Source: an uncultured Pseudohongiella sp. (GTDB lineage Bacteria; Pseudomonadota; Gammaproteobacteria; Pseudomonadales; Pseudohongiellaceae). From it: 64,000 bases of DNA. Below are positions 53,586-64,000 of the stretch, one piece after another; position 1 is the stretch's first letter; every line of letters starts with the position of its first letter. The notes beneath the pieces are model-generated. The model was not told the origin of the DNA. It saw nothing but the letters and a program-made list of their open reading frames with translations, and made no database searches. The DNA lies in the NCBI GenBank assembly GCA_951812965.1, contig OX638341.1:1-64000 (forward strand), in the 5' to 3' direction. The translations under genes were made by a program, and so were the position numbers.

Positions 53586-55331
53586 TTATTCGGTCACATC
53601 CTCCAGATGCTGCCAGCGCATGTAGCCGATGAACATTTCATCCCAGCTTTGCGGACCCCAGTCGATTTCCTGGCCCGGATCCGGGTTGTACGGATTCTGG
53701 GTTGAATTGTCGAAAGCGCCGATGGCGACAATTTCGGTGCCCGCCGGCACGAACTTGCGCTCGAAATGGTGGCGCATCTGCCAGTTGAACTGGTAATTCG
53801 GCACCGAAAGCAATTCCTCGGTAGTGCCGTCCGGGTAGTTGGCGATGAACTTCATGCGCTTGCCGCGATAATGCATATGCGGCATGAGGCTGACTAGATA
53901 GGCGTCCTTGGGCACGACCGCCGATTCGCTGACTTCATGATCCTTTGCGTTAGCCGGTATCAGGAAGCGCCGGTTGAGCGCACGGTCTCCACTCATTCTT
54001 TCGATTTGCGGAATTTCGCCTTCCGGATAGAGATAGATGCCAAGTTCGCTCTGGTCGAACACTTCGCGGCCCGCGGTCGTGTAATGCAACTGGAAAGCTA
54101 CTTTCGAGCCGGCCCGCAGCAAGCCGCCGCGATTGGGTTCGAGCGTCGGCGAACGGCCGGGAACGTAGCCGGTCAGCCCGGCCATCGGCAAATCGCTGTC
54201 TTCGAGGCCGGCGAATTCATTGTCGCCCTCCTCCGGGCGTACGTTTTCCGCCGCGACTTCGGGCCGTACGACACGAGTAATCACGTGATGCAGGACGGCA
54301 TAGTCGCCGGGGGAGATTTCCGAGCCCTGGATCCAGACATCTTCTTCGATGGGTATGTCGGCGACGACGTTCAGGTAATCGACCACACCGGTGGGCGGAA
54401 TGTATTGCGGCGGAATTTGCACGATCACGTCAGGGTCGCGGCCAGGGGAGGCGCGCCACCTGGAATCAGGCCATTGCAGTTCCGCCAGAGGGTCGATGTC
54501 GCCGTCTTTCGGCGCTCCCGCGTCGACCCAATGCACCAGGGTCTGCATTTCATCTTCGCTCAGATTGGTCATGTCGACGATCGTTCCGATATGCGGATCG
54601 ATCTGTCCGGGCGGCATGCGTCTGGTCAGCAGCACTTCGCGAATCATCGGGCTCCAGCCCTGGACTACTTGATGGCTGTTCATGGCGAACGGCGCGATGC
54701 TGTTCTCGCGGTGGCATTCGGCGCAATTCTCGATGATGATCGGCGCGACGTCGTTCACATAGGATATGCCGCCGGCCTCGTGCCGGTCGCGCGCCTCGTA
54801 GGCGATCTCGCAACCCGTCGCCGGCATGGATTCGACGCTGACCGCAAGGCCGGCGGCTACATCCGCGAGCGCGGTTTCGAATCCGGCGCCCGCCGGGCCG
54901 CGATACAGCACGGTGAAGCTGGTTGGGTCGAGCAGCAAGGCTTCGCCCGAATGGATCAGGCCAAGGGCTTCGCCGACTACCTGGGCATCGTCCATAAGCA
55001 CCGGCAGATCGATGCCGAGTTCAGCCATTTCCGCCTTGACGAGATCGCGGTCGACGCCTTCGGCATTGAGCATCAGGAAGGGAATGTTCTGCCCGGAGAA
55101 GCGCTCGCCCAGCGCGGCGTATCCGGGCGCCGCGTCGCGCACCGCGGCGCAGCCGTTGGCCTGGGAAAGCAGGGCCACGGCCTTCATGTCGTCGTACCAG
55201 CTTAGCTGGTGAAAGGCGCCATGCTGGTCGAGCAGGGAAAAGTCGCCGAAGCGCTCAGTGGCCGAGGCAATCAATGGTAAGGCGGTAAGCACGGACAAGA
55301 TCAAGGATGGGACTGCGATGGTTCTGGTCAT
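53586..55331 (-). CDS. Exported redoxin / mono-heme / Cu-monooxygenase-like protein
   Basis: A 581-residue exported protein. The start at 55331 has GGAG 7 nt upstream, with a signal peptide (IAVPSLILSVLTALPLIASA). Residues about 25-180 are a thioredoxin-like redoxin with a single Cys (QANGCAAVRDAAP) instead of CxxC. A c-type heme site follows (NCAECHREN, later MPPGQ as possible ligand). The C-terminal 300 residues resemble type II Cu ascorbate-dependent monooxygenase domains (AVLHHVITR, FQLHYTTAG, LMPHMHYRGKRMKF). The combination recurs in exported proteins of unknown function. It is divergent from a TonB receptor. Confidence 0.87.
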   Translation of the reverse strand: MTRTIAVPSLILSVLTALPLIASATERFGDFSLLDQHGAFHQLSWYDDMKAVALLSQANGCAAVRDAAPGYAALGERFSGQNIPFLMLNAEGVDRDLVKAEMAELGIDLPVLMDDAQVVGEALGLIHSGEALLLDPTSFTVLYRGPAGAGFETALADVAAGLAVSVESMPATGCEIAYEARDRHEAGGISYVNDVAPIIIENCAECHRENSIAPFAMNSHQVVQGWSPMIREVLLTRRMPPGQIDPHIGTIVDMTNLSEDEMQTLVHWVDAGAPKDGDIDPLAELQWPDSRWRASPGRDPDVIVQIPPQYIPPTGVVDYLNVVADIPIEEDVWIQGSEISPGDYAVLHHVITRVVRPEVAAENVRPEEGDNEFAGLEDSDLPMAGLTGYVPGRSPTLEPNRGGLLRAGSKVAFQLHYTTAGREVFDQSELGIYLYPEGEIPQIERMSGDRALNRRFLIPANAKDHEVSESAVVPKDAYLVSLMPHMHYRGKRMKFIANYPDGTTEELLSVPNYQFNWQMRHHFERKFVPAGTEIVAIGAFDNSTQNPYNPDPGQEIDWGPQSWDEMFIGYMRWQHLEDVTE

Positions 55332-55676
55332 GAAGAAGCTCCGAAACACCGCCGGCCCGCGGCGACGTCGATAGTGGACAAATCCGTCTTCAACAACGCT
55401 CCAGCCGGCCGGAACCACTATCGCGCAAGTCAGGCAATCCCGGCTATTGGTCGAGCCTATGCCTGGACGCGAGAATTGTCAACGATGTCGGGGCGCTGTT
55501 GGATTAAATTCCTTGACTTCAAATATGCGCAGTGCTATTCGATTCATGTCGAAAAAAAACAATTTGCGTCTGCAAACGGCGCATCCCAATCCACCACACT
55601 CTTGGCCATAACAAAATAGGGAACTCAATAACGGAAGCAAACGACCATTAGCGCATCCAGAAAGGGGGTGTTCAGC
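55332..55676. other. Divergent promoter region, heme protein / TonB receptor
   Basis: A 345-nt region without a gene. TTGACT (55513), a 17-nt spacer and TATTCG make a weak promoter toward the receptor. An A-rich run (55551-55564) follows. No operator-like palindrome was seen. Confidence 0.4.
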
Positions 55677-60220: not shown

Positions 60221-61450
60221 ATGAATCAACGGTTGAGAACAGCAGCCGTGAGCGGAATGCTGGCTGCTCTGACAATTGGATTCCCGACCCTGGCTACGGC
60301 CCAGGAAAGGCAGCCGATCGACGTCCATGCGCTTGGCCCCCAGGTCGGCGATACCGTGCCCGACTTCCGCCTGCCGGACCAGAACGGTCAGATCCGGAAC
60401 CTCGCATCCATCCTTGGACCCAACGGGGCGATTCTGCTGTTTCACCGCTCGGCTGACTGGTGACCCTACTGCAAAGCGCAGCTCGTGGAGCTGCAGGAAC
60501 AGTTGGAAGAGCTACAGGCTCGAGGGCTCGGCGTGGCGGCGATCAGCTACGATAACGAAGCGGTGCTATCCGAGTTCGCCGAATTGCGCGGAATCACGTT
60601 TCCGCTGCTTGCCGATGACGATTCGAGCGTTATCACCGAATTCGGCATTCTCAATACACTTGCCTACGAGGCGCTCGAAGTAATCGGGCCCAGTCAGAGC
60701 GACCGTAGCGCGGCGGTTCTCGACCCGGCTTTCGAGCAGGATCTGCGGACCTACGTCACCGTCACCAGGGGAGTCGATTTCCACGTGGGGACGGCCCACC
60801 CCGGCACCTTCATGCTCGACGCGAGCGGCCGCGTCACCTCGCGCTACTTCGAGGAGTTCTACCGCGAGCGGAACAGCATCGCCAACATCCTGCTGAAGCG
60901 TGGCGAGGGATTGACTCCGATAGCGGCCGTGGAAGGATCGACCGCGCACCTGAACTTTACCGCTTACCCGAGCAATCCCTACGTTCAGCCTGGCAGCCGG
61001 ATCACCCTGGCGCTGGACGTGGAGCCCGGCGAAAACATGCACGTCTATGCGCCGGGCGCCGAGGAGAGAGGCTATCGGGTCATCTCCCTCAACTTGCGGC
61101 CCGTGCCCGACGTCCGCTTCGAGCCGGTGGAGTATCCCGCGTCGGAAATCTACCACTTCGAGCCCCTCGACGAACTCGTTCCCGTCTACATGCGCAAGTT
61201 CACCGTATTTCAGGACGTGGTCGTGGCGGCGACCGACGAAGCCGAGCAAGCGCTGGCCAAGTTGGATGCGCTGACGCTGGCCGGCACCTTCGACTACCAG
61301 GCCTGCGACGACGCGTTCTGTTATAACCCGGTTTCGATACCGATCTCGTTTACCCTCGACCTGCGCCTGCTCGACCGGTCGGGTCCCATGGAATCCTCCC
61401 CGTTGCGCGAACGTCTTCGCCGGGCGCGCGCGAACGCGGATCCGAACTGA
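60221..61450 (+). CDS. Probable selenoprotein: redoxin (UxxC) fused to DsbD-alpha-like domain
   Basis: A 409-residue exported redoxin if the in-frame UGA at 60461 is read as selenocysteine. The signal peptide (MLAALTIGFPTLATA) precedes GDTVPDFRLPDQNGQIRNLAS and LLFHRSADW-U81-PYC-KAQLVELQ; the Cys form of this motif (WCPYC) is standard in AhpC/TSA-like redoxins. The frame continues through GVAAISYDNEAVLSEFAEL and FMLDASGRVTSRYFEEFY. From about residue 245 it has a domain like the periplasmic DsbD N-terminus, with the Cys pair in YQACDDAFCYNPVSIP. It likely reduces peroxides or disulfides in the periplasm. Without recoding it would be a broken 80-residue fragment. AGGG lies 8 nt before the ATG. 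Confidence 0.85.
60478..60494 (+). promoter_or_regulatory. Putative bacterial SECIS hairpin
   Basis: GCAGCTC pairs perfectly with GAGCTGC around a GUG loop. The stem begins 14 nt and the loop 21 nt after the UGA at 60461-60463, in the range used by SelB in bacteria. An unpaired G in the tip is also expected. Confidence 0.75.
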
Positions 61451-62438: not shown

Positions 62439-62540
62439 CGGCAAGAGTAAAGCGATATCCGATCACAGAGGGTCACAACGATGAATGCCTTGAGCGCAAG
62501 AATCACGAAGGAATCACGGAAAAGCAGTCTTGAGGGATCG

Positions 62541-64000
62541 ATGAAAAAGCTGATCGGAGCGGCTGTTCTCTTCAGCGTTTCGCAATACGGTCTGCAGGCG
62601 GCGGAGCCGGACCAGCCGCCGACTTTTTCGAACGAAGTATCGCGGATATTGCAAGAGAAGTGCCAGCGATGCCACCAGCCGGGCGGCATAGGTCCGATGC
62701 CGCTTGAGACATACGAGCAGGTGCGTGTGTGGGCGCCCCTGATCAGGGAAAACGTCCGCCGCCGCACCATGCCTCCATGGCATCTCGATCACACCATAGG
62801 CATTCAGGAATACAAGAACGACTTCTCTCTCAGCGATGAACAGATAGAAACACTGGTGGCCTGGGTCGATAGCGGTACGCCGGAAGGAGACCGGGCGGAC
62901 CTGCCGCCTCCGGTGGATTGGCCTAACTGGCTGGAATGGGAGCTTGAACCGGAGTTGGGAACGCCGGACATGGTGTTTGGATCGGGCCCCATAACAGTGC
63001 GCGCCGAGGGAGGCGACTTTTGGCCGTCGATTGACGTTGAATGGCCGGCATTGGAGAAACCGCGCTATTTGAAAGCCGCTGAAATACGCAACACCATCCA
63101 GGGTCGTGCAGCCTTGCACCACAATAATGTGCGACTGAATCTGGAAGAGGGCCCATCGGGCCGCGTGGTGGGGGCCGGCGCAGGCAAGCGTTGGGATTAT
63201 TTCGGAGAGGACACCGGTATCCTTTTCGAGACCGGTCCCGGTGTAGTCAATTTTGGCGCTCATTATTTCCCGATCGGCTTTGAATTCGAAGACAACATCG
63301 AAGTGGCGTTCTGGTTTCACCCGGAAGACGATCCGCCGGAAACTGTCGCCAGCGTCGAAATACATCATTTGATAGATCAATTCGACCCTGGTCAGCCGCG
63401 GGCCAGAGACATTCTCATTCCACCTCATGGTACGCAGACCATGTACCGCACCTGGGTGTTGGACGAGCCGGTCATGCTTAACAGTTTTCGCGGGCACATG
63501 CATTTGCATGGCATTGCCATGTCGATCGAAGTAGTTTGGCCCGGGCGCGTGAGGGACTACTATGGGCCAGGCGCGAACCGCCGTGACGTCATCGCGTCGA
63601 TCAACAACTACAATCACAACTGGCAAACGAGCTTTGTGTTCGATGACGACGCCCGGCCCATTCTCCCGGCCGGCACCGCAATCGTCATGCGAACGCATTT
63701 TGACAATACCGCGAACAATCCCCTGTCGATCGACCCGGACCAGTGGGTGGTGTTCGGCGGCAGAAGCGTGGACGCCATGTCGCACTTTCACGTCAGCGTA
63801 ACCTACCTCGAAGAGGAGGAGTATGACTCGCTGTTGTTGACACGGCTGGATCAGTTGGCGGAACGAAAGCGCAAGGACGGCGAATACGGCACTGCCCTGC
63901 TGGCGATTCATCCCGATGAGAGATCGCGGCTTGAATCGGGGGGCGATGGCGTAGCCGTGTCGAACCGTTCAACCGGCGCGGGGCAGTACTCGCAGCAATA
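62541..64000 (+). CDS. Exported mono-heme / Cu-monooxygenase-like protein (end at window edge)
   Basis: At least 486 residues. The ATG at 62541 has GAGGG 4 nt upstream and starts a signal peptide (LIGAAVLFSVSQYGLQA); an in-frame ATG at 62481 is an alternative. A c-type heme site (KCQRCHQPGG, then MPPWH) is followed by a region like the Cu type II monooxygenase fold (LHHNNVRLN, FGAHYFPIG, FRGHMHLHGIAMSI, MRTHFDN). It parallels the gene at 53586 but lacks its redoxin. The frame is open to the last base; the final two bases TA could begin a stop. Confidence 0.85.
   Translation, partial: MKKLIGAAVLFSVSQYGLQAAEPDQPPTFSNEVSRILQEKCQRCHQPGGIGPMPLETYEQVRVWAPLIRENVRRRTMPPWHLDHTIGIQEYKNDFSLSDEQIETLVAWVDSGTPEGDRADLPPPVDWPNWLEWELEPELGTPDMVFGSGPITVRAEGGDFWPSIDVEWPALEKPRYLKAAEIRNTIQGRAALHHNNVRLNLEEGPSGRVVGAGAGKRWDYFGEDTGILFETGPGVVNFGAHYFPIGFEFEDNIEVAFWFHPEDDPPETVASVEIHHLIDQFDPGQPRARDILIPPHGTQTMYRTWVLDEPVMLNSFRGHMHLHGIAMSIEVVWPGRVRDYYGPGANRRDVIASINNYNHNWQTSFVFDDDARPILPAGTAIVMRTHFDNTANNPLSIDPDQWVVFGGRSVDAMSHFHVSVTYLEEEEYDSLLLTRLDQLAERKRKDGEYGTALLAIHPDERSRLESGGDGVAVSNRSTGAGQYSQQ

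Follow-up and report, generated by a model that had tools for sequence, protein, structure and literature searches.

A predicted envelope selenoprotein of a Pseudohongiella species joins a UxxC redoxin to a DsbD-alpha-like domain

A gene of an uncultured Pseudohongiella sp. very probably encodes an exported selenocysteine (Sec) redoxin that is fused to a DsbD-alpha-like domain. It lies in the window analyzed here, a stretch of 64,000 nucleotides at the start of contig OX638341.1, and its features are listed in Table 1. Codon 81 is UGA, which is almost certainly read as Sec by SelB and the Sec-tRNA with the aid of a downstream hairpin.

Table 1. Features of the Sec redoxin gene, in positions of the window
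Feature	Positions	Strand	Basis
Selenoprotein gene, 409 codons, Sec codon 81 = TGA	60221..61450	+	ORF reading and relatives
Putative N-terminal signal peptide, residues ~1-27 (...LATA/QE)	60221..60301	+	Read by eye
Redoxin domain, AhpC-TSA (PF00578), residues 42-206, Prx/Trx fold	60344..60838	+	Profile and fold
In-frame TGA, selenocysteine U81, N-terminal residue of UxxC	60461..60463	+	TGA or Cys codon in every aligned family member
Partner cysteine C84 of UPYC	60470..60472	+	48/48 aligned members
Bacterial SECIS-like hairpin, GCAGCTC-GTG-GAGCTGC	60478..60494	+	Fold, covariation, absence in Cys homologs
DsbD-alpha-like immunoglobulin-fold domain, residues 236-384	60926..61372	+	PF11412 and PDB fold matches
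Second redox Cys pair, C362-x4-C367 (YQACDDAFC)	61304..61321	+	48/48 members

The frame opens with an ATG at 60221 and closes with a TGA at 61448-61450. An earlier note on this DNA had placed the internal TGA at the first Cys of a WCPYC-type motif, and reading of the frame agrees: the active-site motif is W80-U81-P82-Y83-C84, the second Cys is intact, and 328 open codons follow. If the TGA were a true stop or a nonsense mutation, the locus would be a pseudogene or two pieces, one of 80 aa and one restarting at the GTG at 60485. Standard ORF calling yields exactly these pieces (80 aa and 321 aa). However, the sequence downstream of the TGA evolves under coding selection. Compared with an 87% identical relative (L043), this region has 72 differences at third, 21 at first and 8 at second codon positions, and 60 codon changes are synonymous against 28 nonsynonymous. 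Together with the conserved TGA, the covarying hairpin confined to TGA forms and the complete Sec machinery of the genome, all described below, this persistence of selection makes a true stop very improbable.

The same genome contains two full-length paralogs of the window gene, at 1312541-1313671 (61% identical) and 945911-946996 (58%). It also contains a redoxin-only selenoprotein of 189 aa with the motif WUPYC (L026:1402-1968, at genome position 1156970). Each paralog and the short redoxin have a single TGA at the aligned place, giving four related Sec redoxins in one genome, three fusions and one redoxin-only protein. Among relatives of the redoxin-only protein, the TGA is kept in those of the same genus (L033, L038), whereas Cys is found in those from a different genus within the family (L032, L037, L040).

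When species genomes of bacteria and archaea were scanned, 80 loci were detected in Pseudomonadota, Acidobacteriota and Gemmatimonadota, plus one in a bin labelled Bifidobacterium. With the loci from a sampling of the order of the window's genome added, 95 family loci align at site 81, which leaves out three loci without alignment there. The codon is TGA in 73, TGC in 17 and TGT in 5; neither TAA, TAG nor the codon of any other residue was found in them. U81 thus aligns with Cys, as the earlier note had proposed to check. Its view that the position of the TGA is no accident is supported by the two genomic paralogs and by the TGA at the same codon in 73 family loci, which are spread over three phyla. 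L027 and L028, with ACG and ACT at this site, are distant redoxins and were placed outside the family.

In bacterial selenoprotein genes, a stem-loop with a G at the start of its loop is expected just 3' of the UGA. Such a hairpin, with 7 base pairs, follows the T of the TGA at a distance of 17 nt. Across 44 distinct Sec sequences, 97.4% of the stem cells are paired, and both sides have changed in 4 of the 7 pairs (22 cells). The covariation score was equalled in none of 500 shuffles, a test that is inflated by the relatedness of the sequences, and the signal was destroyed when the partner strand was slid. The peptide encoded by 22 Cys homologs is similar, but their sequences pair only at the shuffled level and gave no covariation signal. 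The full stem is present in 36 of the 44 Sec sequences and in 1 of the 22 Cys sequences (Fisher p ~9e-10). Because relatedness inflates the shuffle tests, this Sec/Cys contrast is the stronger argument for the hairpin. When a covariance model of the hairpin region was run against the genome, it gave strong matches at four sites only, one in each of the three fusion genes and one in the short redoxin, all of them genes with TGA. The folding energy of the single sequence is not exceptional (z -1.5 at best), and the evidence for the hairpin rests on covariation. The Rfam model SECIS_1 (RF00031) had no match in the genome, but it had none in any control genome either.

Sec machinery is complete in this genome, a single contig of 3,425,201 bases (3.43 Mb) that is 98.1% complete. 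The tRNA-Sec gene is located at 1859839-1859930 (65.8 bits, above the cut-off), and ARAGORN also reports a tRNA-SeC with a TCA anticodon in the genome. The genes selB (1871860-1873755, 339 bits), selA (1889045-1890433, 573 bits) and selD (1636572-1637468, 252 bits) were detected as well. The earlier note had made its reading depend on selA, selB, selC and selD, above all on selB and selC, and all four are present. Across the family, 19 of 21 genomes that carry the Sec form have selB, as against 2 of 17 that carry the Cys form; because these genomes are related to one another, the p-value of ~1e-6 is only indicative. The Cys-form genes L111 and L113 occur in genomes possessing selB, so the Cys form is not confined to genomes without the machinery.

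An open frame alone is silent on the residue inserted, and the UGA might be read through with a residue other than Sec, by near-cognate suppression or under a reassigned code. This is the least probable of the readings considered: other genes of the window end at TGA without extension and have normal ORFs, and the Cys replacement at the site, the hairpin and the co-occurrence with selB all fit Sec. A crude scan of the window for further genes with in-frame TGA gave weak, antisense-like candidates, none of them convincing. The selenoprotein reading is therefore strongly supported by the machinery, by a site occupied only by TGA or Cys codons, by the hairpin and by the selB co-occurrence.

The protein is predicted from its N-terminus to be exported to the periplasm. 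The putative signal peptide has a basic start, a hydrophobic core and an AxA-type end, and the N-termini are alike across the family. The redoxin domain matches PF00578 with 93.6 bits (cut-off 26, E 1.1e-26) and superposes on Bcp/AhpE peroxiredoxin structures with Z ~19 over ~150 residues (VIA-align). The profile for the C-terminal domain, PF11412 (DsbD_N), scores 25.5 bits (cut-off 25) when the domain is searched alone; in the whole protein its match at residues 257-371 is weak, at 22.1 bits, under the same cut-off. A DsbD_N match at E <= 0.01 was obtained in 47 of 48 members, and U/C81, C84, C362 and C367 are invariant in all 48. The membrane domain DsbD_TM had no match within the window protein.

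The AlphaFold2 model of the window protein has a mean pLDDT of 89.9, and the C-terminal domain folded alone reaches 94.9. A PDB sequence search with this domain alone gave no match, and the fold search was clear: the eleven best PDB folds are ScsB-N and DsbD-alpha entries (Z 12.9, 2.4 A and 123 residues for ScsB-N; Z 11.0-11.6 for nDsbD entries), with unrelated folds beginning at Z 8.6. Profile, fold and Cys invariance thus bear out the earlier proposal of a DsbD N-terminal-like domain with its own Cys pair. There is little doubt about the domain identities, a Prx/Trx-fold redoxin in which Sec81 and Cys84 would form a reversible selenenylsulfide, and a DsbD-alpha-like domain in which Cys362 and Cys367 would form a reversible disulfide.

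The most likely role of the window protein is that of an envelope reductase in which the DsbD-alpha-like domain would feed the Sec-Cys pair. By analogy with known systems, electrons of cytoplasmic thioredoxin would cross the membrane via the DsbD/ScsB-type transporter of the genome, which would reduce C362/C367; this pair would pass them within the same chain to U81/C84, where they would be spent on an oxidized substrate in the envelope. The full relay has somewhat better than an even chance of being correct; alternatively, each domain may have a reducing partner of its own, with no exchange between the two. One candidate feed of DsbD/ScsB type was found in the genome (L123); its open frame spans 888 aa or more and contains DsbD_N, DsbD_TM and Thioredoxin_7. 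It apparently has two DsbD_N-like domains (WQVCEVICIPG, WNVCDLICIPG) ahead of the membrane part (L123:49-2715). In characterized systems, the Trx-fold gamma domain hands electrons to nDsbD, which in turn passes them to partners of Trx fold, among them DsbC and CcmG (PMC7347389), and Caulobacter ScsB feeds an envelope peroxiredoxin via TlpA, the ScsB-TlpA-PprX pathway removing envelope peroxides (PMC5403849).

The active-site motif of the window protein is FHRSADWUPYC, in which S77, W80, U/C81 and C84 are invariant. Peroxiredoxins have the signature PxxxTxxC, and a Pro before a strand is found in thioredoxin-like reductases; proteins of Prx fold with UxxC can be either peroxidases or disulfide reductases. 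Set against PxxxTxxC, the Thr place is taken by U81 and the Pro place by S77, which leaves peroxidase activity uncertain; Pro194, just before a strand, is invariant. In this Pro and in the placement of UxxC, the protein is as close to thioredoxin-like disulfide reductases as to peroxidases. A peroxide and a protein disulfide are each possible substrates, either one at slightly under an even chance. Under the first, the protein may be mainly a thiol peroxidase, in which Sec81 would attack the peroxide, Cys84 would resolve, and the DsbD-alpha-like domain would serve for docking or for reduction. This has nearly an even chance: AhpC-TSA and AhpE/Bcp are the closest profile and fold matches and an ScsB-fed envelope peroxiredoxin exists in Caulobacter (PMC5403849), but the PxxxTxxC motif is not kept, and ResA-type disulfide oxidoreductases fit the sequence profile about equally.

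A function mainly as disulfide reductase of exported thiol proteins, for example apocytochromes c in the manner of CcmG/TlpA, is possible, if somewhat doubtful. It would fit the CxxC-type motif and the similarity to ResA/TlpA, and genes of secreted c-type cytochromes adjoin some copies: one lies at 62481-63998 of the window, and probable cytochrome genes, forming one cluster, are located downstream in L046, L047, L060 and L065. Against it, the neighbourhood varies across the family; none of the neighbours is shared by more than 9 loci, their position and strand vary, and they do not point to a substrate. The window also encodes, on the minus strand at 53586-55418, a protein of 610 aa with an N-terminal AhpC-TSA domain and a long C-terminal part without Pfam match, which clusters with the protein at 62481-63998.

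Known selenoproteins include the Prx-like thiol:disulfide oxidoreductase (PF00578, UxxC) and the Redoxin family protein (PF08534, UxxC) (PMC13188914, PMC9312934), and the GOS survey names 'Prx-like 1' and 'Prx-like 3' selenoproteins (PMC2398784). The window protein resembles the UxxC Prx-like selenoproteins in its Prx/Trx fold, in Sec as the first residue of UxxC, in its Cys homologs and in the SECIS-like hairpin; as in the Prx-like oxidoreductases, AhpC-TSA is above the Pfam cut-off and is combined with UxxC, here UPYC. It differs from them by its additional DsbD-alpha-like domain at the C-terminus, in which a Cys-x4-Cys pair is invariant. This domain shares the immunoglobulin fold and a redox Cys pair with nDsbD/DsbD-alpha and ScsB-N (Z 11.0-12.9 over 106-123 residues), although the Cys spacing is x4 instead of the x5 of E. 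coli nDsbD (C103/C109, PMC7347389), and its partner in the chain is a soluble Sec redoxin instead of the membrane domain of DsbD/ScsB. Like the Caulobacter ScsB-TlpA-PprX system (PMC5403849), the predicted pathway would take a DsbD/ScsB-type feed to a periplasmic Prx-like enzyme, but here a single chain holds both the donor-like and the catalytic domain, the latter with Sec as its catalytic residue. TsoB (NF045694, rhodanese/DsbD fusion-like) is likewise a selenoprotein tied to DsbD-type domains; unlike the window protein, it has UxxxxU (PMC13188914) and its profile spans the DsbD membrane part. NF045694 matched only the separate DsbD/ScsB protein of the genome, far under its cut-off. The SelL-related NF040769 reached 49 bits on the window protein, below its curated cut-off of 120, and none of the NCBIfam models matched the protein at its cut-off.

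More than 60 full-length Sec fusion members were found across Pseudomonadota, Acidobacteriota and Gemmatimonadota. The fusion, called uncommon in the earlier note, seems undescribed in the searchable literature, but it is not rare. Within the order of the window's genome, close full-length copies were found in 1 of 294 sampled genomes, the window's genome itself, and the distribution in that order is therefore patchy. A maximum-likelihood tree was built from 86 rows; on it, the Sec/Cys label takes four changes, compared with 17 when labels are shuffled. Two gammaproteobacterial genes, L043 and L044, form a group with the window gene, and next to this group stands a clade made up of genes from Acidobacteriota and Gemmatimonadota (join support 88/59). 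The two paralogs from the same genome sit apart, in a clade of 21 gammaproteobacterial rows. The tree, in which rooting and direction are not established, suggests a family history of transfer between phyla plus duplication. A Cys-form homolog from a bin labelled Bifidobacterium breve (L110) stands firmly among Acidobacteria in the tree and is probably a mis-binned contig. A second fusion of a Sec redoxin with DsbD_N was observed in other families of the same order (L034:1426-2655; L035:1420-2637, minus strand; L041:1426-2643), in which WUPPC replaces WUPYC and a signal peptide is not evident; DsbD_N was above the cut-off in both proteins scanned (33.1 and 32.4 bits).

Neither a description of a fusion of Sec redoxin and DsbD-alpha nor the string WUPYC was found in the searchable literature, outside of which lie supplements and most subscription papers. 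The fusion seems to be a new architecture inside the known group of UxxC Prx-like selenoproteins, although priority is not firm. Since standard gene calling splits the genes at the UGA and no NCBIfam model names the members, database annotation probably shows the family as fragments.

Tentatively, these proteins may represent a widespread, undescribed family of envelope selenoenzymes with their own DsbD-alpha feed, through which reducing power from a DsbD/ScsB transporter would reach selenium within one chain. If so, a selenium-dependent periplasmic reducing branch, with up to three copies in a single genome, would have been carried between Acidobacteriota, Gemmatimonadota and Pseudomonadota. 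As predicted here, the family takes selenium use into the envelope of cells in Acidobacteriota, Gemmatimonadota and gammaproteobacterial lineages. It also offers a putative donor and acceptor fused by nature, in both Sec and Cys forms, as material for asking why selenium is used, and one genome with four related Sec redoxins provides a setting for the same question.
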